A stretch of 64,000 nt of DNA, taken from Citricoccus muralis. GTDB taxonomy: Bacteria; Actinomycetota; Actinomycetes; Actinomycetales; Micrococcaceae. This document shows positions 50-41,574 of the stretch, piece after piece. A program made the position numbers and the translations under genes. The DNA is taken from the NCBI RefSeq assembly GCF_029637705.1, contig NZ_CP121252.1, forward strand, positions 62,001 to 126,000, in the 5' to 3' direction. The notes beneath the pieces were generated by a model. The model saw nothing but the letters and a program-made list of their open reading frames with translations, had not been told where the DNA came from and searched no databases. Each line of letters opens with the position of its first letter. Positions within the stretch are counted from its first letter, which is position 1.

Positions 50-1882
50 TTGGCAACGTACGCAGTGAAACTTGAGCGCTCGGCGCCGCTTACACTCCCG
101 AGACACCCGGAAGCACCCGAAGAAGAGTCCTTCGAAGAGTGGTGCGCGCGGGAGAAGGCCACAGGGCGTCCGCTCGCCGTCGACCTCTTCTCCGGCGCAG
201 GAGGGCTCGGTGCCGGTGTAGAAGCCGCAGGCTGGACCGTTGTCGCTGCCGTGGATCATGACCGCGCGGCCCTTGAGACGCACCAATCCAACTTCCGCGG
301 GCTTGCCCTCGATGTGGACATGTCCGACCAAGACCAAGTGGCGGCTCTCATCGAGAGGCTCCAGCCGCTTGGGATTGATCTTGTCGCGGGAGGGCCACCC
401 TGCCAGCCATTCAGCCGGGCGGGCCGCGCGAAGATACGAAGCCTCATCAACGAGGGAGTCCGTGAGGAGGAGGACGCCAGAAAGGAGCTCTGGCGATCCT
501 TCATCGACGTTGTTCTCGCGGTCGCGCCTCGGGCGGTGCTCATGGAGAACGTCCCGGATATGGCAATCGGCGACGACCTGACCGTCATTCGCGAGATCGC
601 CATGCTCCTCGAAGAGGCCGGCTATATCGTCGACTATCGACTCCTCGATGCGTGGCGCTACGGGGTGCCCCAACACCGCAAGCGCTTCATCCTCCAGGCA
701 CGCAACGACGGAGCGCTCCCGGTCTGGCCAGAACCAGCGACGACCCGTCCCACTGTTCGCGACGCCATCGCCGACCTGCCAACGCTGAACGACACTACGG
801 GAGCACGTGAGCTGCGCTACACGGGAGAGCCCTCCAGCGCGCTGGCCAAGGCACTGCGAGGGGACGGGCAGAGCGACGTCATCCACGACCACATGACTCG
901 CCCCGTTCGCGACGACGATCGCGAAGCCTTTGAGCTCATGACCTCATCAACGCTGTATTCGGACCTTCCTGAACGGCTCCGCCGCTACCGTTCAGACACG
1001 TTCAACGACAAGTACAAGCGCCTTGACTGGGACGACTTGAGTAGAACAATCACGGCCCACATTGCCAAGGACGGTTACTGGTACATCCATCCCGCCGAGC
1101 ATCGCACGCTCACCGTCCGCGAAGCCGCACGCATCCAGACGTTCGCAGACGACTTCCGCTTCGCCGGAACCCGCAGTGATGCGTTCCGGCAGATCGGCAA
1201 CGCCGTTCCACCAAGCCTGGGCAAGTACGTCGCCGAGGCGATCCTCCCGTTGGACTTGCCGCGCACTGAAGCCCCCCGACTCCCAGCGATGCGCGAGCTA
1301 CTGGTTCAGTGGGCGAAAGAGCAACGCGCCGTGAAGTGGTGGTGCTATCCCGGCCCCGATATGACTCAGGCTGCTGCTGCCGTCGCATCGCTGCTCGACG
1401 TTCACCGCATGCCCACCGCCGCTGCTGAGACTCTCATGACGCCACTGCGGGGCGCGGAGGAACTATCACTCGACCTGCTCCAGCACATCGATGTCCATAC
1501 GCTCAGCGCTACCCGCAAGCGGACCATGCGAGCACTCCGCGAGTGCCTCCGCGACGAGGACAACAAGGACTGGCCCGAGCATGTCGAGTCGGCGCTAGGC
1601 GAAGCCCAGGGTCGTCTCTACTCCCTGCTCCAGGGCTCTGACGAACTCGTAGTCAACGGCCACGTGAGCAAGGTCGTCGCGCTCCTCATGGACCTTCCTG
1701 ACGATCACACTGGCCTGCGCACCGACATCAAGGTCGCGTTGGCTCAGCTAGTCTCAAGTGGGGAGGAGGCGTCACTGAGAATGTGTGCCATCCGCGGCAT
1801 CACTGTTGCTGAAGCGCGGGCGCGCATTGCGTCCAACGTCGTTTCGGTGCGGGATGCGGCTCCCGAGGAGAGTGCCTCATGA
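50..1882 (+). CDS. DNA (cytosine-5-)-methyltransferase with C-terminal extension
   Basis: The product (610 aa) methylates the C5 of cytosine in DNA using S-adenosylmethionine. The family motifs are in order: DLFSGAGG (about residues 45-52, AdoMet binding), PPCQP with the catalytic Cys near 118, ENV at about 166-168, QHRKR at about 208-212, and the QIGNAVPP motif X near 380-390. A normal enzyme of this type would end near residue 405. The remaining ~200 residues form a helical extension that I do not recognise. The start is a TTG placed about 10 nt after GGGAAGGAG. The gene overlaps the next by four bases, so they are co-transcribed. It is probably the modification arm of a restriction-modification or other defence system; the target sequence cannot be read from the protein. 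Confidence 0.93.
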   Translation: MATYAVKLERSAPLTLPRHPEAPEEESFEEWCAREKATGRPLAVDLFSGAGGLGAGVEAAGWTVVAAVDHDRAALETHQSNFRGLALDVDMSDQDQVAALIERLQPLGIDLVAGGPPCQPFSRAGRAKIRSLINEGVREEEDARKELWRSFIDVVLAVAPRAVLMENVPDMAIGDDLTVIREIAMLLEEAGYIVDYRLLDAWRYGVPQHRKRFILQARNDGALPVWPEPATTRPTVRDAIADLPTLNDTTGARELRYTGEPSSALAKALRGDGQSDVIHDHMTRPVRDDDREAFELMTSSTLYSDLPERLRRYRSDTFNDKYKRLDWDDLSRTITAHIAKDGYWYIHPAEHRTLTVREAARIQTFADDFRFAGTRSDAFRQIGNAVPPSLGKYVAEAILPLDLPRTEAPRLPAMRELLVQWAKEQRAVKWWCYPGPDMTQAAAAVASLLDVHRMPTAAAETLMTPLRGAEELSLDLLQHIDVHTLSATRKRTMRALRECLRDEDNKDWPEHVESALGEAQGRLYSLLQGSDELVVNGHVSKVVALLMDLPDDHTGLRTDIKVALAQLVSSGEEASLRMCAIRGITVAEARARIASNVVSVRDAAPEESAS

Positions 1883-4125
1883 CACGCGGTGCGAACCAAG
1901 ACCCCGGGGCGGAGCTAGCAGGACGCGGCGCGCTACGCCCCAAAGCGCGGCTTCTCAGGACACTCGGCAGCGACCTCATCAGCAGCGACAAGGTTGCGCT
2001 CATCGAACTGGTGAAGAACTCCTACGACGCCGACGCAGGTGTCGTCCTGATCCGGTTTCGTGGCCCTCTGAAGGCGGGCGAGGGAGGCATCGAAGTTTGG
2101 GATGATGGACATGGCATGGACGCTGCCACGCTCCAAAGTTCTTGGCTCGACATTGCCACCGACACCAAACGAAGGAACCCACGCAGCGACGGCGGGAGGC
2201 GTGTTCTCGGCGAGAAGGGTATCGGGCGCCTTGCTACCGCGCGCCTTGGCGAGGAGATGCTCCTTACCACGAGGAAGCAGGATGCTGACGAGGTCAAGCT
2301 CCTCATCGACTGGACAGACTTCGACCGGGAGGATGCCTACCTGGACGAGATCGAGGTCGCCTGGGAGGTCGGGGCCCCGGATGTCTTCGCGGCAAACGGT
2401 GCCGCTGCGGCGGCCTTCAGCGAGCTCGACGCTGACGGGTGGCATCAAGAACGAGGCACTGTTCTCCAAGTCGACAGGCTCTCCCGAGAGTGGACTCGCG
2501 ACGACCTTCTTGAGCTTCGCACGGCCCTCACCCGCCTTATCCGCCCGCGTCCGCAGGGTTCAGGCGCTGGATCGGCCAAGGACGCATCCACCGAGCCGGA
2601 CTTCCAGATTGTGCTTGAGCTCACGGATGTGGACGACACGCTGGAGGATCTCGCTGGTCCGATCGAGCCGTCGGCAGACCTACGAACCCCCCACTACCGA
2701 CTGAGCGGTTCGATCGATGTCAATGGATCGGCCACGCTGCACTACGAGCAGCAGGACCCGCCGGAGACCCAAGACATCGGAGTGATGCAACTCTGGAACC
2801 TCGAAGACCGCCCACCTCAGGCCGGCCCCTTCGAGTTCGAGATCAGCGTCTGGGATCGCGACAAGACGGCACTCCAGAGATCACTACAAGCAGCCAACCC
2901 CGAGAACACTGCACCGAGCGCCAGCGACCTCAAGGGCTTCCGAGACACGATGGACGAGGTTGCGGGCGTCAGCATCTACCGCGACGGGTTCCGCGTACTC
3001 CCGTTCGGTGAGACTGGAGACGATTGGCTCGGACTCGACCTGCGACGCGTGCAGAGCCCGACGCTGAGGCTGTCGAATAACCAGATCATCGGTCACGTCT
3101 TCATCGGTGCTGACACAAACGAGAGCCTCAAAGACCAGTCCAACCGCGAGGGCATCCTCGCCGGGGCCGCCTACGCCGATCTTCAGTACCTGGTGCGGGC
3201 GGCACTCAACCAACTCGAACAACGCCGCTACGGCGCTCGACACCCGAAGAAGGAGCAGCCAGAACGTAAGGGTGGTCTGTTCGAACGGTTCGACCTCGGT
3301 GAGATCAGCACTGCACTGAAGCAGAGCTACCCGGGCGACAAGCGGCTGCACGGCCTCATCGACGAGAAAAATCGCGACATCCAGGAAGGCGTAACACAGG
3401 TCCAGAACGTACTGTCCCGGTACTCACGCCTCGCCACCCTCGGCGCGCTCATCGACCGAGTGCTCCACGATGGGCGCACCGTCGTCACCCGACTCAAGAA
3501 CATCGCGCGCTTCGGAACCCGCGACCTCAACAAGCCAAGCGTGAACAACAGCGACAAGGTCAGCATCGCGCTCGGATCAATGACTGACACCGCCGAGCAG
3601 GCCGAACTCCTCTCCTCGCTGTTCAAGCAGATCGAGCCCTTCGGTGGGCGGAAGCGAGGCCGTCCCAAGCAGATCAGCGTCAGCGAGGTAATCGACCGCG
3701 CTATCTCGATACTTCAGCAGGAAGCCGACGATCGTAACGTGCAGCTCGTTGGCGGCGGCACAGACATTGCGGTCAAGATTGACGAGGCAGAACTCCTGAC
3801 AGTCCTCGTGAACTTGATCCAGAACGCGATCTACTGGACCGCTACCCAACCCCAGGGGATTGAGCGGAAGGTGCTCGTCGGTGCCCGGACAAACGAGGAT
3901 GAGTCGCTAACCCTGGTCGTCAGCGATTCCGGGCCAGGCGTCCCCTCTGAGAGCCGCGATTACATCTTCGATCCATATTTCTCCAGCAAGCCTGATGGCG
4001 TGGGGCTCGGGCTGAGCATCGTTGGCAACCTTGTAGAAGACATCTATGCGGGAGAACTCACGCTGGTCGATGAGGGTGCGCTTGACGGCGCGACATTCGA
4101 GGCCACCTTCAGGAGGCGGGTGTAG
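1879..4125 (+). CDS. Double-GHKL protein: MORC/MutL-like ATPase fused to a histidine-kinase module
   Basis: This 748-aa protein carries two separate GHKL ATP-binding folds. The first, at the N terminus, has ELVKNSYDADA (E43, N47), DDGHGMD near 75-81 and GEKGIGRL near 111-118, as in MutL/MORC/Hsp90-type ATPases. It is followed by an S5-like middle region (around 370-450) containing DWLGLD and RLSNNQIIG. The second, at the C terminus, looks like a sensor kinase: a helical stretch with HDG (His about 530) resembling a phosphoacceptor helix, an N-box with Asn near 649, SDSGPG, and GLGLSI near 708. No transmembrane segment is seen, so it should be cytoplasmic. It lies between the methyltransferase and a receiver protein and overlaps both. 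Family knowledge links MORC-type ATPases to C5-methylase systems. The phosphorelay link is my inference. Confidence 0.85.
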   Translation: MTRGANQDPGAELAGRGALRPKARLLRTLGSDLISSDKVALIELVKNSYDADAGVVLIRFRGPLKAGEGGIEVWDDGHGMDAATLQSSWLDIATDTKRRNPRSDGGRRVLGEKGIGRLATARLGEEMLLTTRKQDADEVKLLIDWTDFDREDAYLDEIEVAWEVGAPDVFAANGAAAAAFSELDADGWHQERGTVLQVDRLSREWTRDDLLELRTALTRLIRPRPQGSGAGSAKDASTEPDFQIVLELTDVDDTLEDLAGPIEPSADLRTPHYRLSGSIDVNGSATLHYEQQDPPETQDIGVMQLWNLEDRPPQAGPFEFEISVWDRDKTALQRSLQAANPENTAPSASDLKGFRDTMDEVAGVSIYRDGFRVLPFGETGDDWLGLDLRRVQSPTLRLSNNQIIGHVFIGADTNESLKDQSNREGILAGAAYADLQYLVRAALNQLEQRRYGARHPKKEQPERKGGLFERFDLGEISTALKQSYPGDKRLHGLIDEKNRDIQEGVTQVQNVLSRYSRLATLGALIDRVLHDGRTVVTRLKNIARFGTRDLNKPSVNNSDKVSIALGSMTDTAEQAELLSSLFKQIEPFGGRKRGRPKQISVSEVIDRAISILQQEADDRNVQLVGGGTDIAVKIDEAELLTVLVNLIQNAIYWTATQPQGIERKVLVGARTNEDESLTLVVSDSGPGVPSESRDYIFDPYFSSKPDGVGLGLSIVGNLVEDIYAGELTLVDEGALDGATFEATFRRRV

Positions 4126-5261
4126 TGAGACAGACGGTGCGGGTGCTCATCATCGAGGACCAGGCGGTGCTTGCGGCGGATGCTCAGCGAGAGATTGCCG
4201 ACGCGTTCGAAGACAGCGAAGACATTGAGGTTCAGGTCCAGGTTGCCACCGACTTCGATGAAGGGTTCAAGCGGGTGCGCAAGGGCGAGAGCGACGTGGT
4301 AGTGCTCGACGTGCGACGCGACGCCACGGCTAACACGCCAGAAGACGACACAGCCGGGCACGCTGGGTACCTTGAAATCAAGAAGGCGAGGTTCGCGCCG
4401 ATCATCTTCTGGACAGCCCTGCCAGAGAAGGTGTCGCATGAGGAGATGCCGCCACTCGTCACCGTCGTTACCAAGGAAGACACTGAAAAGCTCCCTGCTG
4501 CGATCCAGGCAGCGGTAGATAGCGGCGCGATGGCGACCATAGGCAGCATCGAGCAACACGTTGCATCAGTGCTTACAGATCACATGTGGAGCGAGTTGGC
4601 TCCGAACTGGACCGAGTACACCCAGGACGCGGACGGGGCCAGCATCGCTCCGGTCTTGCTCAGCAGGCTTGCGCGAGTCATCGACGACGATCGCGAACGG
4701 TCGCTCACCGGACGCCCGAGCTTCAGGTACGTCTATCCGCCGGCCTCTGATCGCAGAGCGCCGGGTGACATCCTGCGAGCATCCGATGAGACCTGGTGGG
4801 TTGTTCTGACCCCGGCATGTGACTTCGCTCAACACAAAGTCGGTCTTGTACTCCTCGCGCAAGCGTCCCCACTTGAAGCGCACGCAAAGTACGTCGCCTG
4901 GAGAGACGAATACCTGGCAGAGAAGAACAAGGGGAAGGCCGCCCACAACCGAGGCAAAGGCGAGTGGAACAGCTTGCGTCAAGACGTGCTCACGTCGACC
5001 CGTGGGCAGTTCCACTACCTTCCCAGATTCAGGGAGATTCCAGACTTGGTGATCGACTTCGAAGATGTCCGGGCCGTGCCGGTCGCGCGACTCACGGAGT
5101 ACGGTCCCGTGGCATCGCTCAGCAGCCCGTTTGCCGAGTCTCTCCTAGTGCAGCATAGTCACTATCGGGGACGTATCGGAGTCCCTGACCTCGACAGCGA
5201 ACTGATCCAGAAGCGGCTCTTCGCCGACGTTGAGGACGCGACAACCAGAGCGTCGAGCTAG
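4125..5261 (+). CDS. Receiver-domain protein with unknown C-terminal output domain
   Basis: Residues 1-130 form a response-regulator receiver: acidic pair E11/D12, phosphoacceptor D62 in VVVLDVRRD, T97 in FWTAL and K117 in VTKED. The rest (about 190-378) is not a recognisable DNA-binding domain. It contains TPACDF, a charged stretch rich in Lys, and a closing SPFAESLLVQ segment. The start is GTG and shares one base with the stop of the upstream kinase-like gene, so the two proteins are very likely made together and may signal to one another. I do not recognise the output domain. The CDF motif could bind metal or be catalytic, but that is a guess. It is the last gene of the three-gene unit and converges with the dprA-like gene 16 bp away. 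Confidence 0.8.
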   Translation: MRQTVRVLIIEDQAVLAADAQREIADAFEDSEDIEVQVQVATDFDEGFKRVRKGESDVVVLDVRRDATANTPEDDTAGHAGYLEIKKARFAPIIFWTALPEKVSHEEMPPLVTVVTKEDTEKLPAAIQAAVDSGAMATIGSIEQHVASVLTDHMWSELAPNWTEYTQDADGASIAPVLLSRLARVIDDDRERSLTGRPSFRYVYPPASDRRAPGDILRASDETWWVVLTPACDFAQHKVGLVLLAQASPLEAHAKYVAWRDEYLAEKNKGKAAHNRGKGEWNSLRQDVLTSTRGQFHYLPRFREIPDLVIDFEDVRAVPVARLTEYGPVASLSSPFAESLLVQHSHYRGRIGVPDLDSELIQKRLFADVEDATTRASS

Positions 5262-5277: not shown

Positions 5278-6276
5278 CTACATTGCGTGTGCTCTCGTGG
5301 ACTCCGTGTCCGCTGAAGAACGCCTCGATGTGCGGGATGCCGTTGGCGTTTGGCTCGCTTCAGTCCCCTCACGTCCGCATGGAGGAACCAGGTCCGAGGC
5401 CTCCGCGACCAATGAAGCACCGTCGCGCAGGAGTTGGTGAGGCCCGGCGCTCGTCGCGGACGTTACCGGACCAGGGACAGCTCCGACGGTGCGGCCGAGT
5501 TCGTGTGCGCGCCGGGCGACGGCCATTGAACCGGATCGAGCACCGGCTTCAACCACGACGGTGGTCGCGGAGAGTGCGGCCATCAGCCGCGCCCGTGCAA
5601 TGAAGCGATGGCGCGTCGGCACCGCACCTGGCGGAACCTCGGTGACCATGAGCCCGAGGTCGGCGACTCGCTCAAGCAGTTCACGGTGACCCATCGGGTA
5701 GGGACGATCAACGCCGTTCGCCATGACCGCGATCGTGTCGCCGCCGGATGCAAGGGCCGCTCGGTGGGCGGCTCCTTCGATGCCGTACGCGCCGCCGGCC
5801 ACGACTATCCGCTCAGCGTTGGCGAGGTCGGACGCCAGCTCCGCCGCCACATGCTCGCCGTAGGAAGTGGCGGCCCTCGCGCCGGTGACCGTGACGAGAT
5901 CGGTGAGCGGTCGTGCGAGGAACGATGTCGCGCCGCGAGTCCAGAGGACGTAGGGGCGCCGGTCGCCAAGATCGTCGAGCGCAGATGGCCATTCCTTGTC
6001 GCCGGGGATCAGCGTGCCGATACCGGCGCGCTCGGCTGCAGCAATGTTCTGCTCAAGTGTCCGAGTATCTGAGCGCTGGAACTGGGAACGCCACACGTGA
6101 GCGTCAACGGTACTGAGGCCCGGCACCACGTCGTCACGCCCGGCAAGCCGAAACAGCTCAAGTGCCCCCAGCTCGCCCAGCAGCCGGCCAGTCACGGTAT
6201 CGTCCGGTTCGACGAGCATCGACAGCGCCATCCGCGCCGTGCGCTCGTCCTGGACTACGTCGCTCAGGTTCGTCAT
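5278..6276 (-). CDS. DprA/Smf-family DNA-processing protein (accessory copy)
   Basis: The 332-aa product has the Rossmann-like DprA core: VTGARAATSYGE, GGAYGIEGAAHR, VDRPYPMGHRELL, RHRFIARARLMAALS and EAGARSGSMAVARRA. Core DprA proteins bind single-stranded DNA and load RecA during transformation. Relatives on islands and plasmids are common in actinobacteria and their role is less clear. The usual C-terminal winged-helix domain is absent; instead the protein ends in a Ser/Thr/Arg-rich tail of about 45 residues. An AGAGGA ribosome-binding sequence precedes the ATG. It is convergent with the methyltransferase module, and its position next to that module suggests a defence or mobile-element role rather than the chromosomal dprA. 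Confidence 0.85.
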   Translation of the reverse strand: MTNLSDVVQDERTARMALSMLVEPDDTVTGRLLGELGALELFRLAGRDDVVPGLSTVDAHVWRSQFQRSDTRTLEQNIAAAERAGIGTLIPGDKEWPSALDDLGDRRPYVLWTRGATSFLARPLTDLVTVTGARAATSYGEHVAAELASDLANAERIVVAGGAYGIEGAAHRAALASGGDTIAVMANGVDRPYPMGHRELLERVADLGLMVTEVPPGAVPTRHRFIARARLMAALSATTVVVEAGARSGSMAVARRAHELGRTVGAVPGPVTSATSAGPHQLLRDGASLVAEASDLVPPCGREGTEASQTPTASRTSRRSSADTESTRAHAM

Positions 6277-6472: not shown

Positions 6473-6844
6473 ATGTTCCGCGTTATCTGGACGCTCAGCG
6501 TTCGCACTCGCGACTACCTGCACCGCTACATGCCAAGCAACCGGCTGCTCGCTGCCATCCGCACCCGCCGCGGACTCAAGTGGGGGATACCCGCGATGCT
6601 GGTCGCGCTTCCGTACTTCCTGGTCGCCAGCATCTGCTCTGGCTCGGCAGCCGACGGCGGCCCAGGCTGGCTCCACCTCATCGTGCTATGGGCATGCTGG
6701 AACGCGCTCAAGTTCATCATCATGGGACCCGTGAGCGTCGCTCTGCTCATCCGTGCGCGCCTGCGCGAAGCTGCGGTCCGCCGTCACCAGCGCCACGACT
6801 CGCGCGTCGAGGCGAGCCTGCGTGAGCCAGCCCTTCGTGTCTAG
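6473..6844 (+). CDS. Small membrane protein of actinobacterial accessory DNA (often mis-named sulfate permease)
   Basis: The product is 123 aa with two hydrophobic segments, one at about residues 42-60 (MLVALPYFLVASI) and one at about 68-92 (LIVLWACWNALKFIIMG), and a basic C-terminal tail rich in Arg and His. I start it at the ATG following GAGAGGCCTGTC, because the longer upstream reading has no protein-like composition. From memory, similar short proteins occur beside mobile or plasmid genes in Arthrobacter- and Microbacterium-like genomes and are often labelled sulfate permease without support. No function can be assigned. It ends 2 bp from the convergent HTH gene. Confidence 0.7.
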   Translation: MFRVIWTLSVRTRDYLHRYMPSNRLLAAIRTRRGLKWGIPAMLVALPYFLVASICSGSAADGGPGWLHLIVLWACWNALKFIIMGPVSVALLIRARLREAAVRRHQRHDSRVEASLREPALRV

Positions 6845-6846
6845 GG

Positions 6847-7194
6847 TCAACCGCCCACGGCTGTGGGTGCCGTGATGCGAGAACCAGAGCGTCCGCCAGG
6901 CCGGATCACGACGCCGTGCGAAGCGAGCGCTCGCCGGACAGCCTGAGGCCCCGCCCCAACCTTCACGCCGACCTCTACCAGCGTCAACCCGCTGAGGTAG
7001 AGGTCGGCTGCTTCGTGGATGCGGGAGGGATCGAACCGTCCACGGCGGATCGTTACCTCCCGCCGGGTGAGGTGGGTGGCGACCGTGCGGCGGTTCACGC
7101 CGAACACGGATGCCAGCTCCACGAGCGTTGCGCCCTCGCGGTACTGCGCCACCAGATCGTCGACTTGCTCCGGGCGAAGGAGGGTTTGAGCCAT
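6847..7194 (-). CDS. Small helix-turn-helix protein
   Basis: The product is 115 aa and consists of two successive HTH-like units: LVELASVFGVNRRTVATHL near residues 25-43, and LVEVGVKVGAGPQAVRRAL near 72-90. This resembles the DNA-binding tail of serine recombinases and short Hin-type HTH proteins found with mobile elements. I chose the ATG at 7194 rather than an upstream one because the additional residues show no HTH or other fold. No recombinase catalytic domain is present, so it is either a stand-alone regulator or a remnant of a recombinase. It is convergent with the small membrane protein gene. Confidence 0.7.
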   Translation of the reverse strand: MAQTLLRPEQVDDLVAQYREGATLVELASVFGVNRRTVATHLTRREVTIRRGRFDPSRIHEAADLYLSGLTLVEVGVKVGAGPQAVRRALASHGVVIRPGGRSGSRITAPTAVGG

Positions 7195-7525
7195 CCTAAG
7201 TGATCGCACCACTCGCCCCCTGGAGTCGGAAACAGTAGGCCCAGAGGAGCGCTGGTCGTGGTCGTAGAAGCCCCGTGACCTGCGCAAAGACAAGGTTTTC
7301 AGGTGTGGGCAGGGGTTCTCAAACTCTCTACGGAGGTCCACCACCGGAAGTCCCGGATCATCGGCAACGATGATCCGGGACATTCGTTTTTTCTGGCTAC
7401 CTTCTCTTTGGTGCCGCGCATTTTCTGGGGATACAGAAATGGCGACTGCGGGGTGCTTTCAAGGGGACGCCTCGGAGTACTCAGATGCGGGTTATGTGCC
7501 AAAACGTGTGCTTTTTTGCGGCGTG
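7195..7525. other. Gene-poor stretch between HTH gene and IS-truncated remnant
   Basis: Short open frames exist on both strands but none has a convincing ribosome-binding site or protein-like composition. The only clear structure is the strong hairpin at 7351-7380. The stretch upstream of 7194 must contain the promoter of the HTH gene, but I could not pick a credible -35/-10 pair. Confidence 0.5.
7351..7392 (+). terminator. Strong hairpin with T-tract (terminator-like), repeated in variant form at 15932
   Basis: A perfect 12-bp stem (TCCCGGATCATC pairing with GATGATCCGGGA) closes a six-base loop GGCAAC and is followed within 12 nt by GTTTTTT. This is the form of an intrinsic terminator acting on rightward transcripts, yet no rightward gene lies just upstream. 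A close variant with loop GGAAAC lies at 15932-15961, again followed by a T-run. Confidence 0.65.
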
Positions 7526-31924: not shown

Positions 31925-34900
31925 ATGGCGCGCTTCACACCTCTGGAATGGCCGGTGATCCGGCAGCTGCGCTCGTCCGATCGCTTCGGCCGAGGCGAAG
32001 CCGTCATGTCTCAGCGCACCAAGGACATCGAGCCACGGACCTCCACTGCAGATCGTGTGGTGCAGAGCGTGTGCCCGTACTGTGCCGTCGGGTGTGGCCA
32101 GAAGGTGTTCGTCAAAGATGAGAAGGTCGTTCAGGTCGAAGGCGACCCGGATTCGCCGATCTCGCGAGGGCGGCTCTGCCCCAAGGGCTCCGCCAGTGAG
32201 CAGTTGGTGAATTCGGCGACTCGACAGACCGAGATCCTCTACCGGGCACCGTACGCCACCGAGTGGCGGACCCTGGAGTTGGACGAGGCGATCGACATGA
32301 TCGCCGACCGGTTCATCGAGTCCCGCGCGAAGTTCTGGCAGGACCACGACGAGGCCGGTCGCCCGGTACGGCGCACCATGGGCATTGCCGCACTCGGCGG
32401 TGCGACCCTCGACAACGAAGAGAACTACCTGATCAAGAAGCTGTTCACCGCCGCCGGTGCGATTCAGCTCGAGAATCAGGCCCGTATTTGACACTCCGCT
32501 ACGGTTCCCGGTCTGGGAGCCTCCTTCGGCCGAGGCGGGGCCACGCAACCGCTGCACGATATGGCCAATGCGGACTGCATCGTGATTCAGGGATCCAACA
32601 TGGCCGAGTGCCATCCCGTGGGATTCCAGTGGGTGATCGAGGCGAAGGCTCGCGGCGCCCGGGTGATCCACGTCGACCCCCGGTTCACTCGCACCTCCGC
32701 CCTGGCGGACCAACATGTCCCGATTCGGGCCGGATCCGACATCGTGTTGCTCGGTGCCCTGATCAACCACGTGCTGAGCAACGAGCTGTGGTTCAAGGAC
32801 TATGTGGTGGCCTATACCAATGCGGCCACGATCGTCGGCGATGACTTCGTCGACACCGAGGACCTGGACGGACTGTTCTCTGGTTACGACCCCGAGACAG
32901 GAAAATATGACTCGTCGAGCTGGGCGTACAAGCAATCCGGCTCAGACAACGCTGATGCCGATGCTTCCGGAACGGGACAGGACACGACCCCAGGCAGCCC
33001 CGAACAGTACGGTGACGGAGGTCCGAACGTCCGCACGACCGGGCTGCGCGACGAGACGCTGCAGGACCCGCGGACGGTGTTCCAGATCCTGAAGCGGCAC
33101 TATGCCCGGTATACCCCGGAGATGGTGTGCCAGACCTGCGGGATCTCCGAGGAGGACTTCGCCTATCTGGCCCGCTCCATCGCCGAGAACTCCACGCGCG
33201 AGCGCACGACGTGTTTCGCCTATGCGGTGGGCTGGACCCAGCACACCATGGGTGCCCAGTTCATCCGCACAGCGTCGATCTTGCAGCTGCTGCTGGGCAA
33301 TATGGGACGACCCGGCGGCGGCATCATGGCGCTGCGCGGTCATGCCAGCATCCAGGGCTCCACGGATATTCCGACCCTGTTCAACCTGTTGCCCGGCTAT
33401 CTGCCGATGCCGACCGCGGATACAGCGACGCTGGACCAGTACATCGAGGGCATCGCGACCCCGAAACAGATTGGCTTCTGGGCCGAAGCCCGGGCCTACA
33501 CGGTGAGCTTGCTCAAAGCCTGGTGGGGAGACCATGCGACGGCGGAGAACAACTTCGCCTACGACTACCTGCCGCGATTAACGGGACCACACGGCACGTA
33601 TCAGACGGTCGGGCGGATGATGGACGACGAGGTCGACGGCTACTTCATCTTCGGCCAGAATCCGGCGGTGGGCTCGGCACACGGGCGCATGCAGCGCATG
33701 GCCATGTCACACCTGAAGTGGCTGGTGGTACGCGACTTCTCGCTGATCGAATCCGCCACCTGGTGGAAGGACAGCCCAGAGATCCAGTCCGGCGAAATGA
33801 AGACAGAGGACATCGGCACCGAGGTGTTCTTTATGCCCGCGGCGAACCATGTGGAGAAGTCCGGGACCTTCACCCAGACCCAGCGCATGTTGCAGTGGCG
33901 CCACCAGGCGGTGCAGCCGCCGGGACAGGCCCAGAGCGAGCTGGACTTCTTTTACGAGCTAGGGATCCGGATCCGGGAGCGGCTGAAAGACTCCACCGAC
34001 CCTCGAGACCGTCCGCTGCTGGATCTGACGTGGGAGTATCCATTGGATGAGCACGGCAACCCGGACCCGGAGGCGGTGCTGGCTGAAATCAACGGCTATC
34101 ACGTCAGTGGAGAGATGGCCGGCACGCCGCTGGGTGCCTCCACGGAGATGAAGGACGACGGCTCCACCGCGGGAGGCTGCTGGATCTACACGGGCGTCTT
34201 CGCCGACGGCGTGAACCATTCCGCGGACCGCCCGGCGCGCGCGGAGCAGAACCCGGTGAGCCCGGAATGGGGTTGGGTGTGGCCGGCGAACCGCCGCGTG
34301 CTCTACAACCGCGCCTCGGCCGACCCCGAGGGCAAGCCGTGGAGCGAGCGGAAGAAGTACGTCTGGTGGGATGCGGACGAGCAGCGCTGGGTAGGCAACG
34401 ATGTGCCGGACTTCCCGGTGAATCTTGCCCCCGATCACCGACCGGAATCAGGGGCCACCGGGGTGGCCGGGCTGAGCGGGGTGGACGCGTTCATCATGCA
34501 GGGTGACGGCAAGGGATGGCTGTATGCGCCCAAGGGGCTGCTCGACGGGCCGCTGCCTACTCACTATGAGCCGCAGGAATCCCAGGTGCGCAACCCGTTG
34601 TACTCGCAGCAGCGCTCGCCCACCCGGATCACGATGAACAGCAGGGACAACCTCAGCGCGCCCAGCGGTGCTGATGCCGGCGCCGAGGTGTACCCGTACT
34701 CGTTCACCACCTACCGCCTCACCGAGCATCACACGGCGGGCGGGATGAGCCGGTGGCTGCCCTACCTCTCCGAGCTGCAGCCGGAGATGTTCTGCGAGGT
34801 CTCCCCGCAGCTGGCCGAGGAAGTCGGCCTGGAGCCCTACGGATGGGCCACCATCATCTCGCCGCGCGCCGCCATCGAGGCCAAGGTGCTGGTGACCGAG

Positions 34901-35308
34901 CGAATGAAGCCCTTCGACGTCGGGGGCCGGACCGTCCACCAGATCGGGCTGCCGTACCACTGGGGTGTTGGCGGCGACGGCGCGGTGGTTCAAGGCGACG
35001 CCGCCAACGACCTGCTGGGCATCGTGATGGACCCCAACGTGCTCATTCAGGAGTCCAAGGTGGGAGCGTGCGCCATGCGCCCTGGACGCCGCCCGCGGGG
35101 AGCGGAGTTGCTGGACCTGGTGCGCGACTACCAACAGCGCGCCGGGCTGACCGTGCAGGTCGGGCTCAGCCCCGCCGACGAGGGACCGCATGCCGACGAG
35201 GTCGCCCAGTCCCCGAATCGTGTTGCTCCTGACGCGAGTGCACGAGAATACTACGATGACACGCAGATGCCAGGATCAACCGAACCGAGCAGAGAGGTGG
35301 ACCGATGA
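31925..35308 (+). CDS. fdhA: Formate dehydrogenase alpha subunit, selenocysteine-containing (UGA at 32489)
   Basis: Reading through the in-frame TGA at 32489-32491 as selenocysteine gives a 1127-aa molybdopterin protein. The N terminus has the 4Fe-4S ligands CPYC, C in AVGCG and GRLCPKG. The active site is ARI-U-HSATVPG, followed by GASFGRGGATQ. The C-terminal molydop-binding domain contains GLPYHWG. The UGA sits exactly where FDH-N/FDH-H enzymes carry Sec, and a SECIS hairpin follows it. It oxidises formate to CO2 and hands the electrons to FdhB. I keep the start at 31925 because the 28 residues before the next ATG resemble the N terminus of related enzymes. The stop overlaps fdhB by four bases. 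No Tat signal is obvious at the N terminus. Confidence 0.95.
32489..32521 (+). promoter_or_regulatory. SECIS element for selenocysteine insertion
   Basis: After UGA and an 11-nt spacer, GGTTCCC (32503-32509) pairs with GGGAGCC (32515-32521) over seven pairs, one a G-T wobble, closing a loop GGTCT. The loop and its distance from UGA match the E. coli fdhF/fdnG SECIS, whose loop GGUCU is recognised by SelB. Confidence 0.9.
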
Positions 35309-36309
35309 CATCGACAACGGTGGGTCTTACCGAGGCCGGGCACGCCCCGGCGCAGCACCAGCACCACGACCGCAAGGGGTTCTTCACCGACACCTCGATC
35401 TGCATCGGCTGCAAGGCCTGTGAGGTCGCGTGCAAGGAATGGAACCGCAACCCCGCGGATTCCACCTGGGAGCTCTCCGACTCCTCCTACGACAACACCG
35501 GATCGCTGGGAGCGGATACGTGGCGGCACGTGGCGTTCATCGAGCAGGATCAGGAGCAGATCGAGCAGGCCCGCGAGTCCGGACGGCGGCTGGTGAGCCT
35601 GGGGATGCCCAGCGTGCGCCGCGACCCGGACACGCAGGACCTCTCCGGCGTCGACACCACCCCGCCGGACACCCCGGACTTCCGCTGGCTGATGTCCTCG
35701 GACGTGTGCAAGCACTGCACCAACGCCGGCTGCCTGGATGTGTGCCCCACCGGCGCCCTGTTCCGCACCGAGTACGGCACCGTCGTCGTCCAAGAGGACA
35801 TCTGCAACGGCTGCGGCACCTGCGTGGCCGGCTGCCCGTTCGGGGTGATCGAACGCCGCAAGGACGGGATCGCCCAGCCCAAGACGAACCGGGATTTCAC
35901 CGCCGGGGAGCAGGCCCCGACCCCGAACGTGGGCGTGGCCCAGAAATGCACGCTGTGCTACGACCGGCTCACCGACGACCAGACTCCGGCCTGCGCTCAA
36001 GCTTGCCCGACCACTTCGATCAAATTCGGCTCACACGAGGAACTGGCGAAGATCGCCCGGGCCCGGGTGCGGGAGCTGCACCGTCAGGGGCTCAGCGAGG
36101 CCCGGCTCTACGGGGCTAACGAGAACGACGGCGTGGGCGGCACCGGGTCGATCTTTCTGCTGCTGGACGAGCCTGAAGTGTACGGGCTGCCCCCAGACCC
36201 TCGGGTCGCGACCGCGGATTTGCCGAGGATGTACAAGCGGGCCGGGATGGCCGCGCTGGGCATGATCGGTGCGGCGGCGCTGGCGTTTGTGGCGGGAGGG
36301 CGCCGGTGA
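35305..36309 (+). CDS. fdhB: Formate dehydrogenase iron-sulfur (beta) subunit
   Basis: The 334-aa product has four 4Fe-4S clusters: CIGCKACEVACKEW (33-46), CKHCTNAGCLDVCPTG (near 135), CNGCGTCVAGCPFG (near 170) and CTLCYDRL with CAQACPT (near 214-235). A C-terminal hydrophobic helix (near 310-330) anchors it, as in FdnH. It passes electrons from FdhA to the membrane subunit. It starts inside the fdhA stop and its own stop overlaps the next gene. Confidence 0.95.
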   Translation: MTSTTVGLTEAGHAPAQHQHHDRKGFFTDTSICIGCKACEVACKEWNRNPADSTWELSDSSYDNTGSLGADTWRHVAFIEQDQEQIEQARESGRRLVSLGMPSVRRDPDTQDLSGVDTTPPDTPDFRWLMSSDVCKHCTNAGCLDVCPTGALFRTEYGTVVVQEDICNGCGTCVAGCPFGVIERRKDGIAQPKTNRDFTAGEQAPTPNVGVAQKCTLCYDRLTDDQTPACAQACPTTSIKFGSHEELAKIARARVRELHRQGLSEARLYGANENDGVGGTGSIFLLLDEPEVYGLPPDPRVATADLPRMYKRAGMAALGMIGAAALAFVAGGRR

Positions 36310-37406
36310 CGGTCTCCGAGTTCGACAGCTACCGTCCGCCCGAGAAGCCCCGACGGCGTCGCGGGCGCCGGGGTCGGCCCGGGGGCGGACCCCGGCCGGG
36401 GGCGCTGGACGGCTCCCGCGAGATGGCGATGGTGCCCGAGGTCGAGTTCAGCTCCTACTACAACCGCCCGATCGTCAAGGCGCCGCCCTGGGAGAGCCCG
36501 ATCGGGATCTACCTGTTCCTGGGCGGGGTCGCCGGGGGCTCGGCGCTGTTGGGCTTCGGCGCCCAGCTCACCGGCAATGACACGCTGCGGCGGAATTCTC
36601 GGATCTCGGCAGTGGGCGCGGCCAGCCTGGGCGCCGGGGCCTTGGTGCTGGACTTGGGGCGCCCGGAGCGGTTCCTGAACATGTTCCGCACCCTGAAGGT
36701 GTCCTCCCCGATGAGCGTGGGCTCCTGGATTCTGGGTGCGTTCAGCGCCGGGGCCGGGGTGGCTGCGGTGGCCGACGTGGACCGGATGACGGGCGAGCGG
36801 TTGCCGCTGGGTCCGCTGCGCGGGCTGCTGCGGCTGATGGAGGCACCCGCCGCCGGGGTGGCGGCGGTGTGTGCCGCACCGTTGGCCGCCTACACCGGGG
36901 TGCTGCTCTCGGATACCGCGAACCCCACCTGGAACGCGGCAAAGGAGGACCTCTCGTTCGTCTTCGTCAGCTCGGCGTCGATGGCGGCCGGCGGGCTGGC
37001 CATGGTGACCACACCGGTGGCCGATGCCGGACCGGCCCGGGTGCTGGCGATCACCGGGGCGGCCGCGGAGCTGGTGGCCGATGAGGTGATGGAACGTCGG
37101 ATGGACCCGGTGGCGGCCGAACCGCTGCACCACGGCGCCCCGGGAACGATGCTGCGCTGGGCCAAACGGTTGTCGGCGGTCGGCGGTGCCGGGGCGGTGC
37201 TCGCCTCGGTCACGCGCAGCCGGACGGTGGCGGTGGCCTCCGGGGCTGCCCTGATGACGGCCTCGGCGCTGACCCGCTTCGGGGTGCTGCACGCCGGCCT
37301 GGAGTCGGTGCACGATCCCCGGTACGTGATCGAACCGCAGAAGCGGCGCCTGGAACAGCGCCGTCAGCGCGGGGTGACCGACGACTCGATCACCACCGCG
37401 GAATGA
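36306..37406 (+). CDS. NrfD/PsrC-type membrane subunit of formate dehydrogenase
   Basis: The 366-aa product starts with GTG within the fdhB stop. After a basic, Pro/Arg-rich N terminus it has about eight hydrophobic segments and the NrfD features GIYLFLGGVAGGSALLGF and VLDLGRPERFLNMFRT. NrfD subunits move electrons to the quinone pool without haem, replacing FdnI. It ends directly against the convergent selD gene (TGATCA), with no room for a terminator. Confidence 0.9.
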   Translation: MTVSEFDSYRPPEKPRRRRGRRGRPGGGPRPGALDGSREMAMVPEVEFSSYYNRPIVKAPPWESPIGIYLFLGGVAGGSALLGFGAQLTGNDTLRRNSRISAVGAASLGAGALVLDLGRPERFLNMFRTLKVSSPMSVGSWILGAFSAGAGVAAVADVDRMTGERLPLGPLRGLLRLMEAPAAGVAAVCAAPLAAYTGVLLSDTANPTWNAAKEDLSFVFVSSASMAAGGLAMVTTPVADAGPARVLAITGAAAELVADEVMERRMDPVAAEPLHHGAPGTMLRWAKRLSAVGGAGAVLASVTRSRTVAVASGAALMTASALTRFGVLHAGLESVHDPRYVIEPQKRRLEQRRQRGVTDDSITTAE

Positions 37407-38405
37407 TCAGCGCAAGGTGATGCCGGCCCCGGCCACGGTTTCTCCGATGACCGGGTAGCCGGGGATCTCCCCGACGACGAGCAGCCCGCCGGAGGTCTGG
37501 GCATCGGCCAGCAGCACCAGCTGTTCCTCGCTCAGGTCGGTCTCGACGTGCAGGTGCGGGCGCACCCAGTCCAGATTGCGGCGGGATCCGCCCGGAACGA
37601 ATCCGTCATCCAGGGAGGACTGGGCGCCGGCGATCACCGGGACGGCCGCCGCGTCGAGCACCGCGCCGATCCCGGAGGCCCGGCACATCTTGAACAGGTG
37701 GCCCAGCAGCCCGAAGCCGGTGATGTCGGTGGCGGCGCGCACCCCGGCGGCCACCGCCTGTTGCGAAGCCTCCCGGTTCAGCTGGGCCATCTGCGCCACG
37801 GCATGGTCGAAAACCTCCCCGGTGGACTTGTGCCGGTTGTTGAGCACCCCCACTCCGATCGGTTTGGTCAGGGTCAGCGGCAAGCCGGGCTCGGCGGCAT
37901 CGTTGCGCATCAGCCGTTGCGGGTGCGCCGTGCCCGAGACCGCCATCCCGTAGAGGGGCTCGGGGGTGTCGATGGAGTGCCCGCCCGTGACCGGACAACC
38001 GGCTTCGGTGGCGACGTCGAGCCCGCCGCGCAGCACCTCGGTGAGCAGATCGAAGGGCAGAGTCTCGCGCGGCCAGCCCACCAGGTTCAGCGCGCTGACT
38101 GGGGTGCCGCCCATGGCGTAGATGTCCGAGAGCGCGTTCGCGGCGGCGATGCGCCCCCAATCGTAGGGGTCATCGACCACCGGAGTGAAGAAATCGGTGG
38201 TGGAGAGCAGGGCCAGATCCTCGCGCACCAGCACGGCGGAGGCGTCGTCGCCGTCGTCCAATCCCACCAGCACCTCGGGCGAGGTCTTCCCGACCAACCC
38301 GGAGACGGCATCCTCGAGCTCACCGGGCGGGATTTTGCAGGCGCAGCCGCCGCCGTGGGCGAAGTGGGTGAGTCGGATCTGCTCGGACACAGTGTGATCA
38401 GCCAT
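37407..38405 (-). CDS. selD: Selenide, water dikinase
   Basis: The 332-aa product makes selenophosphate from selenide and ATP. The catalytic loop GGGCACKIPP carries Cys21 and Lys24, matching Cys17/Lys20 of E. coli SelD; this copy uses Cys, not Sec. ATP-binding Asp residues are in GLDDGDDA and STTDFFTPVVDDP, and GGHSIDTPEPLYG is conserved. It is the last gene of the selenium unit, 24 bp after selB. Confidence 0.96.
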   Translation of the reverse strand: MADHTVSEQIRLTHFAHGGGCACKIPPGELEDAVSGLVGKTSPEVLVGLDDGDDASAVLVREDLALLSTTDFFTPVVDDPYDWGRIAAANALSDIYAMGGTPVSALNLVGWPRETLPFDLLTEVLRGGLDVATEAGCPVTGGHSIDTPEPLYGMAVSGTAHPQRLMRNDAAEPGLPLTLTKPIGVGVLNNRHKSTGEVFDHAVAQMAQLNREASQQAVAAGVRAATDITGFGLLGHLFKMCRASGIGAVLDAAAVPVIAGAQSSLDDGFVPGGSRRNLDWVRPHLHVETDLSEEQLVLLADAQTSGGLLVVGEIPGYPVIGETVAGAGITLR

Positions 38406-38429
38406 GCCCCGAGACTATCGGATTCCGGT

Positions 38430-40241
38430 TTAACGCACGATGGTTCGGGTGGCGCCGTCGACGCGGCGGGTCCACCCGCGGGCGTCCAGGTGTTCCAGCA
38501 GTGGGATGGCCACCCGGCGCGTGGTGTCTAGCGCCTGGCGGGCCGCGCTGGTGGTGAAGGGCTGTTCCAGTCCGGCCAGGGCGCGCATGGCCAGGGCGGG
38601 GGCGGTGGGCAGCAGGATCACCTCTCCGGGCAGGCGCAGCACCCGCCCCATGCGTTCGGCGGCGGCCAGTTCTCGGGCGCCCAGGCCCCCGGCGGCCAGA
38701 TCGTCGGCCTCGGGGGCGGCGAAGGGCTGTTCGCGCAGCCGCGCCTCCAGAGCGGTCAGGCCAGCCTCGGCGTGACCCAGCTGGGGGCGGTGACCGGGCG
38801 GGGCCACCAGCCCGTCGGCGGATTCCAACTGTGCTGCCGCCACGACGCGCGGCAGTAGCGAGGCCTCCGGCAGCGGGGGCGAGCACCGGGACAACACCGA
38901 CGCCGCGGCGCCGGTGGTGAGCCCTGGAGCCAGCGGATCCTGCCGCAGGTGGTCGGTGACGGCACGGTGCAGCGCGGTGGCCCAGCGGTGCAGGGCGTCG
39001 GGGTTGATCTGCCAGGGGTCCGGCTGCTGTACCGTGGCCGGGGTGCCCCAGTGTTCGGGCAGCCGCAGCCCGAGATGGTACAGGGCGGAGCGGGTCATCG
39101 CACCGCGCCGGCGCACCTCGGCGTCCGGATCGCCGGCAATCGGGCGTCCCTCCAGCTCTCGGGCTCGGCGGGCGCCATCGCCGCGGCGGGCCAGGGCCGG
39201 CGGGTTGACGTCGAGCACCAGGGCCCCGGCGAACACGAAGCGGGCGCCAGGGCTGGAGAGCACCAGCCGGTCCCCGTGCTGCAGCGGCAGGGCCCGTTCC
39301 AGGGTCAGTCGCGCGTGCCCGTCGCCCAGCGGGCGCACCCGGGCGGACACCACCGCCGTGCCCAGATAGACCATCAGCTCCTGGGGTGCGTCTGAAAAGT
39401 CGGAGCCGGTGACGCTGCGGACGTCGACGACGGTGACGGCCGGCCAGGCGTCCGGGGACACCAGGGCGTCACCGCGGTGCACCTGGGCCACGGTGAGTTC
39501 GCGCAGATTCACCGCCACCCGAGACGTCGGGGTGATCTCCCTCAGCTGGGCGTTCTGCCGGTGCAGCCCGCGCACCGCGGTGGCTTTCGTCCCGGTGCGC
39601 CCCACCAGTTGCAGCCGGTCTCCGACCCGCAGCGTGCCGGCGGTCAGGGTGCCGGTGATCACGGTGCCCGACCCCTTCACGCTGAAGGACCGGTCCACCC
39701 ACAGCCGCACCCGGTCCGTAGTGTTCGGGACTGGCGCCTGCGCGAGCACCGTGTCCAGGGTGTGCATCAGCTCCTCGAGCCCGGAGCCGGTGCGCGCGGA
39801 CACGGTCACGACGGGCGCGTCGTGCAAGGCGGAGTCGGTCACTGCGCGCCGGAGCTGGGCCTCGGTGGCGGTCAGCTGTTCGGCCGAGGCCAGGTCGGCA
39901 CGGGTGAGGACGATGAGGCCGCCGGTGATTCCCAAGGCGGTGATCGCCGCCAGGTGGTCATCCGACTGCTCCTGCCAGCCCTGGTCGGCGGCGACCACCA
40001 GGCACACCGCCGGCGCCGGGCCGACCCCGGCCATCATGTTGGACAGGAAACGTTCATGTCCGGGGACGTCGACGAAGGCGACCTCGCGTCCGGAGGGCAG
40101 GGCGCGCCAGGCGAAGCCTAGGTCGATGGTGAGACCCCGGCGCTGTTCATCGGCGAGCCGGTCTGGTTCCATCCCGGTCAGGGCGCGAACCAGAGCGGAC
40201 TTGCCGTGGTCGACGTGGCCGGCGGTGGCGACGACGTCCAT
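38430..40241 (-). CDS. selB: Selenocysteine-specific elongation factor SelB
   Basis: The 603-aa GTPase brings Sec-tRNA to the ribosome at UGA codons followed by a SECIS. It has G1 GHVDHGKS (residues 9-16), G3 DVPGHERF near 58 and a G4-like LTRADLA near 112 in place of NKxD, then EF-Tu-like barrels and C-terminal winged helices (about 370-603) that bind the SECIS loop. The length is close to E. coli SelB (614). It lies one base from selA. Confidence 0.96.
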   Translation of the reverse strand: MDVVATAGHVDHGKSALVRALTGMEPDRLADEQRRGLTIDLGFAWRALPSGREVAFVDVPGHERFLSNMMAGVGPAPAVCLVVAADQGWQEQSDDHLAAITALGITGGLIVLTRADLASAEQLTATEAQLRRAVTDSALHDAPVVTVSARTGSGLEELMHTLDTVLAQAPVPNTTDRVRLWVDRSFSVKGSGTVITGTLTAGTLRVGDRLQLVGRTGTKATAVRGLHRQNAQLREITPTSRVAVNLRELTVAQVHRGDALVSPDAWPAVTVVDVRSVTGSDFSDAPQELMVYLGTAVVSARVRPLGDGHARLTLERALPLQHGDRLVLSSPGARFVFAGALVLDVNPPALARRGDGARRARELEGRPIAGDPDAEVRRRGAMTRSALYHLGLRLPEHWGTPATVQQPDPWQINPDALHRWATALHRAVTDHLRQDPLAPGLTTGAAASVLSRCSPPLPEASLLPRVVAAAQLESADGLVAPPGHRPQLGHAEAGLTALEARLREQPFAAPEADDLAAGGLGARELAAAERMGRVLRLPGEVILLPTAPALAMRALAGLEQPFTTSAARQALDTTRRVAIPLLEHLDARGWTRRVDGATRTIVR

Positions 40242-40242
40242 A

Positions 40243-41574
40243 TCAGCTCCCGATGGTGGTGACGGTCAACGCCGCCCGGACGGCCGTGGTGAGGGCGGCA
40301 TCGTCGTGCTCGGGAATGCAGCGCAGATCGATGAGGCATCGGCCGCTGTGTGCCCGGGCCAGGACGGCGGGACTCCCCTGACGCAGGGCAGTGGCCACCG
40401 ACTCGGGAAGCTCCACCGCCCAGCCGGGCAGCGGGTGGCCTGGAGCCCCGCCTCCGCCGACGCGCCCGTGGTGCTCCACCACGGTGCCGCCCACCGCGTC
40501 CGCCAGAGCTGCGGTGCGGGCGTGCAGGTGCTCGGGGTCGGCGTGCAGAAAGGCCGGAACCGGAGCCTCGGGCCCGCGCAGCGTGGCCTCCAGGGCGGCG
40601 AGGGCGAGTTTGTCCGCGCGCAGCGCTCGGGCCAGCGGGTGGGTGCGCAGGCGCTGGATGAGCTCGACTCGGCCCAGCAGGATCCCGGCCTGCGGGCCGC
40701 CGAGCAGCTTGTCGCCGCTGGCGATCACCACATCCGCGCCGGCGCGCAGGGCGGTGGCGATATCGGGCTCCTGTGGCAGTGACGGGTCGGGGGCCAGTAG
40801 CCCGGAACCCAGGTCCACCACCAGTGGTAGCCCGTGGGCATCGGCCAGGGTGCGCAGCGCGGGGATTCCGACATCGGAGGTGAACCCTTCGACCCGGAAG
40901 TTGCTGGGGTGAACCTTCACCAGGCACCCGGTGTCGGGGCCGAGGGCGCGGCGGTAATCCTCCAGATGGGTGCGGTTGGTGGTGCCCACCTCGCGCAGCC
41001 GGGCCCCGGTGGAGACCATCAGATCGGGCAGCCGGAACCCGGCGCCGATCTCGACCAGCTCGCCGCGGCTGACCACGGCCTCCCTCGAGGATCCGGGCCC
41101 GGCGCACAGTGCGGTGATTGCTAGCAGTAGGGCCGCTGCCCCGTTGTTCACCACCAGCGCGTCCTCGGCCTGCGGGCAGGCACGCAGCAGGGCTTCGGCG
41201 GTGCCGGTCGCTCGGGAACTGCGCTTGCCGGTGCCCAGATCCATCTCGACGTCGACGTACCCGGCGGCGACCTGCACGGCCTCCCGGGCCGCGGCGGAGA
41301 GCGGGGCCCGGCCCAGGTTGGTGTGCACGATCACCCCGGTGGCGTTGAGCACGGGGGCGAGAGAAACCACGGGGTGGGCGAGCAGTTCCTCGGCGACGGC
41401 GGCTCGCACCTGCTCGGGGGGCAACTGCCCGGTGCGGGCACGCTCCTGGACAGCGCGCAGCACGGCCCGGATCTCCGTCTCGGCCAGGCGCTGCCGGGCT
41501 TGATCTACGACGTCGAGGGCGAGCAAGTCGTCGGTGCGGGGGATCGCGCGCCGGCGGTCGCCGTCGTGGTGCAT
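40243..41574 (-). CDS. selA: L-seryl-tRNA(Sec) selenium transferase
   Basis: The 443-aa PLP enzyme converts Ser-tRNA-Sec to Sec-tRNA-Sec using selenophosphate. It shows NATGVIVHTNLGRAPLS near residues 80-96, NNGAAALLLAI near 145, and the PLP lysine in ASGDKLLGGPQAG near 290. AGGAAGG precedes the ATG. It begins 31 bp after the tRNA-Sec gene on the same strand. Confidence 0.96.
   Translation of the reverse strand: MHHDGDRRRAIPRTDDLLALDVVDQARQRLAETEIRAVLRAVQERARTGQLPPEQVRAAVAEELLAHPVVSLAPVLNATGVIVHTNLGRAPLSAAAREAVQVAAGYVDVEMDLGTGKRSSRATGTAEALLRACPQAEDALVVNNGAAALLLAITALCAGPGSSREAVVSRGELVEIGAGFRLPDLMVSTGARLREVGTTNRTHLEDYRRALGPDTGCLVKVHPSNFRVEGFTSDVGIPALRTLADAHGLPLVVDLGSGLLAPDPSLPQEPDIATALRAGADVVIASGDKLLGGPQAGILLGRVELIQRLRTHPLARALRADKLALAALEATLRGPEAPVPAFLHADPEHLHARTAALADAVGGTVVEHHGRVGGGGAPGHPLPGWAVELPESVATALRQGSPAVLARAHSGRCLIDLRCIPEHDDAALTTAVRAALTVTTIGS

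Follow-up and report, generated by a model that had tools for sequence, protein, structure and literature searches.

A three-gene module of Citricoccus muralis couples a C5-cytosine DNA methyltransferase to a double-GHKL kinase-like protein and a receiver whose output domain is predicted to adopt a fold reminiscent of the MazF and CcdB toxins. This predicted toxin-like fold, with conserved residues of its own (Cys232, Asp233 and Arg350), is the new element described here. The explanation that we favor, tentatively and at rather less than an even chance, is that the module is a mobile, modification-gated phosphorelay defense system with a toxin-fold effector, of which we infer the trigger and the effector activity.

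Architecture of the Module

The genome is a single contig of 3.13 Mb, and the window, the whole stretch of 64,000 nucleotides that was analyzed, starts at its base 62001. The three-gene unit consists of the open reading frames exactly as placed by an initial annotation made from the sequence alone, and the overlaps of 4 bases (ATGA) between methylase and kinase and of 1 base (TAGTG) between kinase and receiver, as well as all of the motifs that it claimed, were confirmed in every detail. The features, in window coordinates, are as follows.

50..1882 (+), C5-cytosine DNA methyltransferase, 610 aa, TTG start; PF00145, TIGR00675, catalytic motifs
1247..1879 (+), methylase C-terminal extension, ~210 aa, possibly a decayed HhH-GPD-like domain; position matches the Endo III-type domain of relatives, suggestion only
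1879..4125 (+), soluble double-GHKL sensor-kinase-like protein (paraMORC-like), 748 aa; PF13589, PF02518, 85-sequence alignment
1984..2349 (+), N-terminal GHKL ATPase domain (HATPase_c_3, MORC/MutL-like), aa 36-157; PF13589 E 1.8e-22, conserved motifs
3466..3468 (+), His530 codon, predicted phospho-acceptor in the H-box helix (VLHDGR); His in 85/85 relatives
3781..4113 (+), C-terminal kinase-type GHKL domain (HATPase_c), aa 635-745; PF02518 E 1e-20; N, G1, F and G2 boxes
4125..5261 (+), response-regulator-like protein, 378 aa, GTG start; open reading frame, predicted structure, 73-member family alignment
4131..4520 (+), receiver domain, aa 3-132; predicted structure against receivers, Z up to 16.5 over ~120 residues
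4308..4310 (+), Asp62 codon, predicted phosphorylation site; Asp in 73/73 relatives
4707..5192 (+), output domain, predicted MazF/CcdB-type fold, aa 195-356; AlphaFold2 pLDDT 93, Foldseek, VIA-align
4818..4823 (+), Cys232-Asp233 of the TPxCD motif; Cys in 73/73, Asp in 70/73
5172..5174 (+), Arg350 of the output domain; Arg in 70/73

The methylase matches PF00145 (E 4.5e-57) and TIGR00675 (E 3.6e-46) in profile searches and, with GPPCQ at position 115, ENV at 166 and GNAVPP at 383, is intact by motifs. The C5-methylases of four relatives (L010, L031, L033 and L039) carry an Endo III-type four-cysteine cluster fused at the C terminus, in which the catalytic Asp is seemingly lost. Profile comparison matches this cysteine-cluster clade to HhH-GPD (P 1.5e-5) and, weakly, to the extension of the C. 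muralis methylase clade (P 0.0019); the latter extension gives no match to the HhH-GPD profile and contains no cysteine cluster. The extension is possibly a decayed HhH-GPD-like domain, which is offered as a suggestion only.

Both GHKL domains of the kinase keep their N- and G-boxes, and the ATP-binding motifs ELVKNSYDAD, DDGHGM and GEKGIGR of the N-terminal domain are conserved in the 85-sequence alignment. His530 is invariant in these kinases, the surrounding helix reading mostly HE/HD-G-R-K-P-L. The receiver is strongly diverged, such that PF00072 is only weakly detected (E 0.063). An AlphaFold2 model of the protein, computed with 73 relatives, has a pLDDT of 92, and its residues 2-138 superpose on receivers. 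Asp62 is invariant among the 73 members of the receiver family, and the acidic pair E11/D12, T/S97 and K/R117 are kept, corresponding to D12, T97 and K117 in the C. muralis protein. The H-box His and the N- and G-boxes of the kinase and the acidic pair, Asp, Thr/Ser and Lys/Arg of the receiver are thus all conserved, and the earlier proposal that the two signaling proteins retain phosphorelay residues holds across the family.

Conservation and Exchange of the Three Genes

About 85,000 species genomes were scanned with the kinase alignment, yielding 291 relatives, of which the best 80 were kept. The loci were picked by the kinase alone, so the linkage of the partner genes, counted for these 80 nearest kinases with mechanical gene calls, fairly represents this clade. 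Of 78 testable loci, 76 have the receiver gene directly downstream of the kinase gene, and the two exceptions (L019 and L042) are truncated or broken. Of 76 loci, 74 have a C5-methylase within 8 kb and 61 have it directly upstream. The kinase-receiver junctions mostly measure -8 to +5 bases, and the gene order recurs in Actinomycetota, Bacteroidota, Pseudomonadota, Campylobacterota and archaea. Such a neighborhood search had been called for by the initial annotation, whose view that the three genes form one unit is upheld by it. Together with the invariance of His530 and Asp62, the recurrence of the gene order across distant phyla shows that the observation is not due to chance. At one decayed locus, L019, the receiver is lost and the methylase remains; this resembles the decay of restriction-modification (R-M) systems, an analogy for which a single locus is a thin argument.

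The kinase and receiver vary together more closely than the kinase and methylase. In 59 complete sets, the Mantel r is 0.951 for kinase-receiver distances and 0.692 for kinase-methylase distances, with 0 of 999 permutations as high. Between L052 (Sediminicola) and L053 (a Cytophagales MAG), the kinases are 98% and the receivers 91% identical, and the methylases only 56%; at the DNA level, a 92.5% identical stretch runs from inside the methylase gene to the end of the receiver gene. This exchange of the methylase beneath the pair indicates that the pair is independent of any one methylase sequence, and suggests that target specificity, if required at all, is supplied by the methylase. The reverse case is seen in L011 and L012 (methylase 98%, kinase 96%, receiver 69%). 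Related kinase-receiver pairs are found beside an N4/N6-type methylase in L128, L129 and L155, and a pair of the same kind lies behind a DndD-like ATPase, with no adjoining methylase, in L193 (6724-13621, -) and L194 (6698-13687, -). The DndD-like ATPase was tested in L193, where it matches TIGR03185 with E 9e-26, below the model cut-off.

Predicted Structure of the Output Domain

Because a fold search with the whole receiver protein was dominated by the receiver domain and uninformative on the output, the output domain (aa 195-378) was predicted separately. The resulting AlphaFold2 model has a pLDDT of 93.3, and MazF-family structures make up all of its top 50 Foldseek matches in the PDB, with E values from 1.7e-3. 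VIA-align superposes the domain on MazF-mt3 with Z 11.4 (rmsd 2.7, 102/105 residues) and on CcdB with Z 10.6; 146 chains reach Z ≥ 8, and just 3 more fall between Z 5 and 8. A viral fold library gave weak PemK-like matches only. A MazF/Kid/CcdB-type fold is predicted with high confidence for the output domain, the match in the model being one of fold, not activity. The initial annotation had described the output as unknown and had considered a nuclease in this position; structure prediction, which it had proposed, replaces the former with a predicted fold, and no nuclease is recognizable.

The known toxin catalytic sites comprise an Arg/Thr pair in MazF and an Arg/Asp pair in Kid. The MazF pair is not evident in the output domain: by alignment and motif reading, neither Arg nor Thr is conserved at the strands where it would be expected. 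PF02452 (PemK) has no match at E ≤ 1 in the C. muralis receiver, and the 25 families listed for the 73 members of the receiver family do not include it. A sequence link to PemK was also sought by profile-profile comparison with 12 PemK proteins and was rejected as not significant (probability 0.1%).

The domain instead has a conserved set of its own: Cys232 and Pro300 are found in 73/73 receivers, Gly214 and Gly352 in 72/73, and Asp233 and Arg350 in 70/73. The Gly, Cys-Asp and Arg residues are kept, by alignment, in receivers of the PF19192, N4/N6-methylase and DndD-like families. A profile of the output domain matches L126-L129 weakly, with E values of 1e-5 to 0.009 that rest on the motif, and the TPxCD core is faintly visible in L126 and in the PF19192 member L127. 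The domain also occurs alone, as proteins of ~185 aa in Bacteroidota genomes, with the same Gly, Cys-Asp and Arg kept.

L185, 7053-7613 (-), standalone output-domain protein
L186, about 6817-7393 (+), standalone output-domain protein
L188, 7391-7945 (+), standalone output-domain protein
L190, 6320-6874 (+), standalone output-domain protein

Conserved across distant families and standalone proteins, Cys-Asp-Arg looks more like a functional site, as judged from these alignments. The standalone gene of L188 is located behind a TIGR04255 gene and a gene for a 114 aa protein. In the collection of papers searched, none was found that links a receiver to a MazF/PemK output or to TIGR04255, an absence that is not proof.

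Comparison with Known Systems

A two-component-like pair next to C5-methylases, HEF_HK/Response_reg_2 (PF19191/PF19192), was reported in 2021 (Bellieny-Rabelo 2021, PMC8011034). The claim of the initial annotation that the combination cannot be matched therefore does not stand as regards this parallel pair, and its overall interpretation survives in part: the conserved unit, the phosphorelay residues and the lack of a nuclease to the left are retained, and the "unmatched" combination and "unknown" output are not. Similar to HEF_HK/Response_reg_2, the pair described here comprises a kinase of HATPase_c_3, histidine helix and HATPase_c and an adjacent receiver with a conserved Asp, usually with a C5-methylase upstream and commonly with Vsr, the genes being adjacent in the proportions given above (76/78 and 74/76 loci). 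The pair differs in that neither Pfam model detects its proteins and in that its helix reads HDG/HEG rather than HEF. PF19191 gives no match at E ≤ 1 in the C. muralis kinase or the relatives scanned, and PF19192 none in the receiver (E ≤ 1) or in its genome; the list of 25 families for the 73 receivers lacks PF19192 as well. Both searches work, since they detect the positive control L127, a genuine member from the same order of bacteria (E 5.9e-28 and 9.4e-42, respectively). Further, no other known domain was reported in the Response_reg_2 receiver protein (PMC8011034), whereas an output domain is identified here. The pair is a sister family of HEF_HK/Response_reg_2.

The kinase also resembles the paraMORC GHKL ATPases of R-M operons (Iyer 2008, PMC2292703), in which paraMORC1 has a conserved C-terminal extension beyond S5. 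Like these, it has an N-terminal GHKL domain with intact ATP motifs and is found beside C5-methylases and Vsr; unlike them, it has a receiver partner, none being mentioned in a text search of that paper. The BbrUII/HgiDII-type GHKL restriction enzymes (NF050001, which matches the kinase weakly at aa 26-219) and MzaABCDE likewise have GHKL ATPases working with C5-methylases, and Mza-like genes adjoin some relatives of the module. In C. muralis, however, a kinase transmitter replaces the fused nuclease, and no Mza gene is nearby. A C5-methyltransferase is shared with classical type II R-M systems, from which the module differs in having no recognized adjacent endonuclease. The output domain shares its predicted fold with the MazF/Kid/PemK and CcdB toxins and differs from them in lacking a PF02452 or significant profile match, in its conserved residues and in its fusion to a receiver.

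Genomic Context

The left neighbor of the module, at a distance of 146 bases, is a MobF-type relaxase gene, identified as traA from its translation, of which the 3' half is present there. With the intact TraA of L015 as the yardstick, traA is split by ~12.9 kb in L002 (own genome 45001-62000): residues 27-880 map to L002 342-2987 and residues 878-1208 to L002 15893-16873, the right end of the insert being occupied by a serine recombinase (L002 14262-15845, -). The initial annotation had placed a possible fourth gene or nuclease left of position 1. The 17 kb left of the window contain recognizable relaxase/transfer, transporter and recombinase genes only, and this candidate was rejected; no cognate endonuclease was recognized there or immediately to the right of the receiver, so that its statement that no nuclease is visible also holds for those 17 kb. 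On the right, insertion sequences and a DprA-like gene on the opposite strand are observed.

5278-6276 of the window (-), DprA-like gene, running toward the module with 16 bases between it and the receiver stop

Four of the nearest relatives (L015-L018, from Microbacterium and Propionicimonas) also lie behind a full-length traA. The recombinase and traA end of C. muralis recur in L128 (4407-11848), with 77.7% DNA identity over 2573 bases, and the module that comes next there is a different one, of N4/N6-type methylase, kinase and receiver. The site behind traA thus resembles a slot for cargo. Given these arrangements and the location of the Campylobacter relatives on conjugative plasmids, the module is probably cargo of conjugative elements.

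Elsewhere in the window, formate dehydrogenase genes (32561-41574) stand beside genes for apparent SelD (37407-38405, -), SelB (38430-40241, -) and SelA (40243-41574, -), read from translations; the formate dehydrogenase probably uses selenocysteine.

Accessory Genes and Alternative Roles

Vsr is found near 28 of 86 loci and is absent beside the C. muralis module. In six other loci, a standalone HhH-GPD glycosylase with catalytic VDSN and a cysteine cluster lies directly behind the receiver.

L043, 7637-8293, HhH-GPD glycosylase
L045, 4843-5487, HhH-GPD glycosylase
L047, 3364-4107, HhH-GPD glycosylase
L055, 12270-13013, HhH-GPD glycosylase
L081, 4354-4977, HhH-GPD glycosylase
L085, 8261-8887, HhH-GPD glycosylase

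The glycosylase occupies the slot where Vsr often sits, which suggests that the two replace each other beside C5-methylases. These genes and the Endo III-type cysteine cluster of some methylases are consistent with a repair signaling role, in which a MutL-like watch on 5-methylcytosine deamination damage (T:G mismatches), with Vsr or glycosylase, would signal stress. We consider this role improbable, as Vsr accompanies many C5-methylases anyway, the C. muralis module has neither Vsr nor a cysteine cluster on its methylase and a toxin-fold output is unnecessary for repair.

MzaB-E-like genes (GHKL, Z1, DUF4420, AIPR) occur in about 8 loci and are absent next to the C. muralis methylase. In L054, L056 and L065, the receiver gene is joined to an MzaB-like GHKL gene by junctions of -8 to -4 bases, followed by Z1, DUF4420 PD-(D/E)XK and AIPR genes, and a similar run is found on the Hymenobacter plasmid L006. 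Such junctions could be expected of an adaptor, inert alone, whose phosphorylated receiver would recruit or license a separate nuclease cassette next door or elsewhere. The rarity of the cassette (about 9/86 loci), together with its absence in the 17 kb left of the C. muralis module and the DprA gene and insertion sequences on its right, makes this reading unlikely.

PglZ, type I and type III R-M genes stand beside some other loci, and some loci have no adjoining same-strand restriction gene, the neighbors having been partly scanned. The coexistence of the pair with many different restriction cassettes and swapped methylases is what would be seen with a generic regulator, the main rival to the defense reading. 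Here the pair would sense DNA or nucleotide state and tune the methylase and nearby restriction genes, in their expression or their activity, with the toxin-fold domain as a mere binding module; SH3-like barrels are able to bind DNA, RNA or protein, and the canonical MazF catalytic residues are not evident. A regulatory role for such pairs has been proposed in general terms, with the speculation that they control R-M systems (PMC8011034). Against a regulator stand the frequent lack of a recognized restriction gene beside the three-gene module (within the neighbors scanned), the lack of a known DNA-binding output domain and the Cys-Asp-Arg set, whose conservation in distant families and standalone proteins is more like that of a functional site. 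We regard a regulator as somewhat unlikely, and the probability left after the four explanations is reserved for something not considered.

Proposed Mechanism and Implications

In the favored defense reading, the kinase-receiver pair would occupy the place of the restriction half in an R-M-like system. The methylase, intact by motifs, would mark the host's own DNA, and the N-terminal MutL/MORC-type ATPase clamp of the kinase would inspect DNA, probably in concert with the methylase, a sensing role assumed for the clamp by analogy with its MutL/MORC relatives. Unmarked foreign DNA would alter the state of the clamp and switch on the C-terminal kinase, leading to phosphorylation of the conserved His530. 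The phosphate would then pass to Asp62 of the partner, as the residues, linkage and co-variation of the two proteins suggest. Phosphorylation would free or assemble the C-terminal domain of predicted MazF/CcdB fold, which, through its Cys232/Asp233/Arg350 site, may target nucleic acid or essential machinery of the host, thereby halting the invader or sending the cell into dormancy.

This reading draws on the conserved unit, the phosphorelay residues, kinase-receiver co-variation and methylase swapping, on the DNA-handling partner genes (N4/N6 methylase and DndD-like), the output fold and the standalone output domains, and on the defense-gene neighborhoods (Vsr, Mza-like, PglZ, type I/III R-M), the conjugative plasmids and the decay of L019. 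Against it stand an output domain that, by sequence, has no evident MazF Arg/Thr pair, PemK model match or significant profile match, and the complete nuclease cassettes beside some modules, which would be superfluous if the pair itself restricts.

To our knowledge, two-component signaling has not so far been shown to drive restriction. It is possible, if still doubtful, that the module represents an R-M-like system with a His-Asp phosphorelay in place of the restriction enzyme, that this phosphorelay fires an effector of MazF/CcdB fold whose Cys-Asp-Arg site is new, and that the system can be coupled to several partners (C5- and N4/N6-methylases and a DndD-like ATPase). If the defense reading is true, a widespread, horizontally moving module would tie the marking of DNA to a phosphorelay whose output has a toxin fold, and R-M, two-component signaling and toxin-antitoxin biology would become linked fields.
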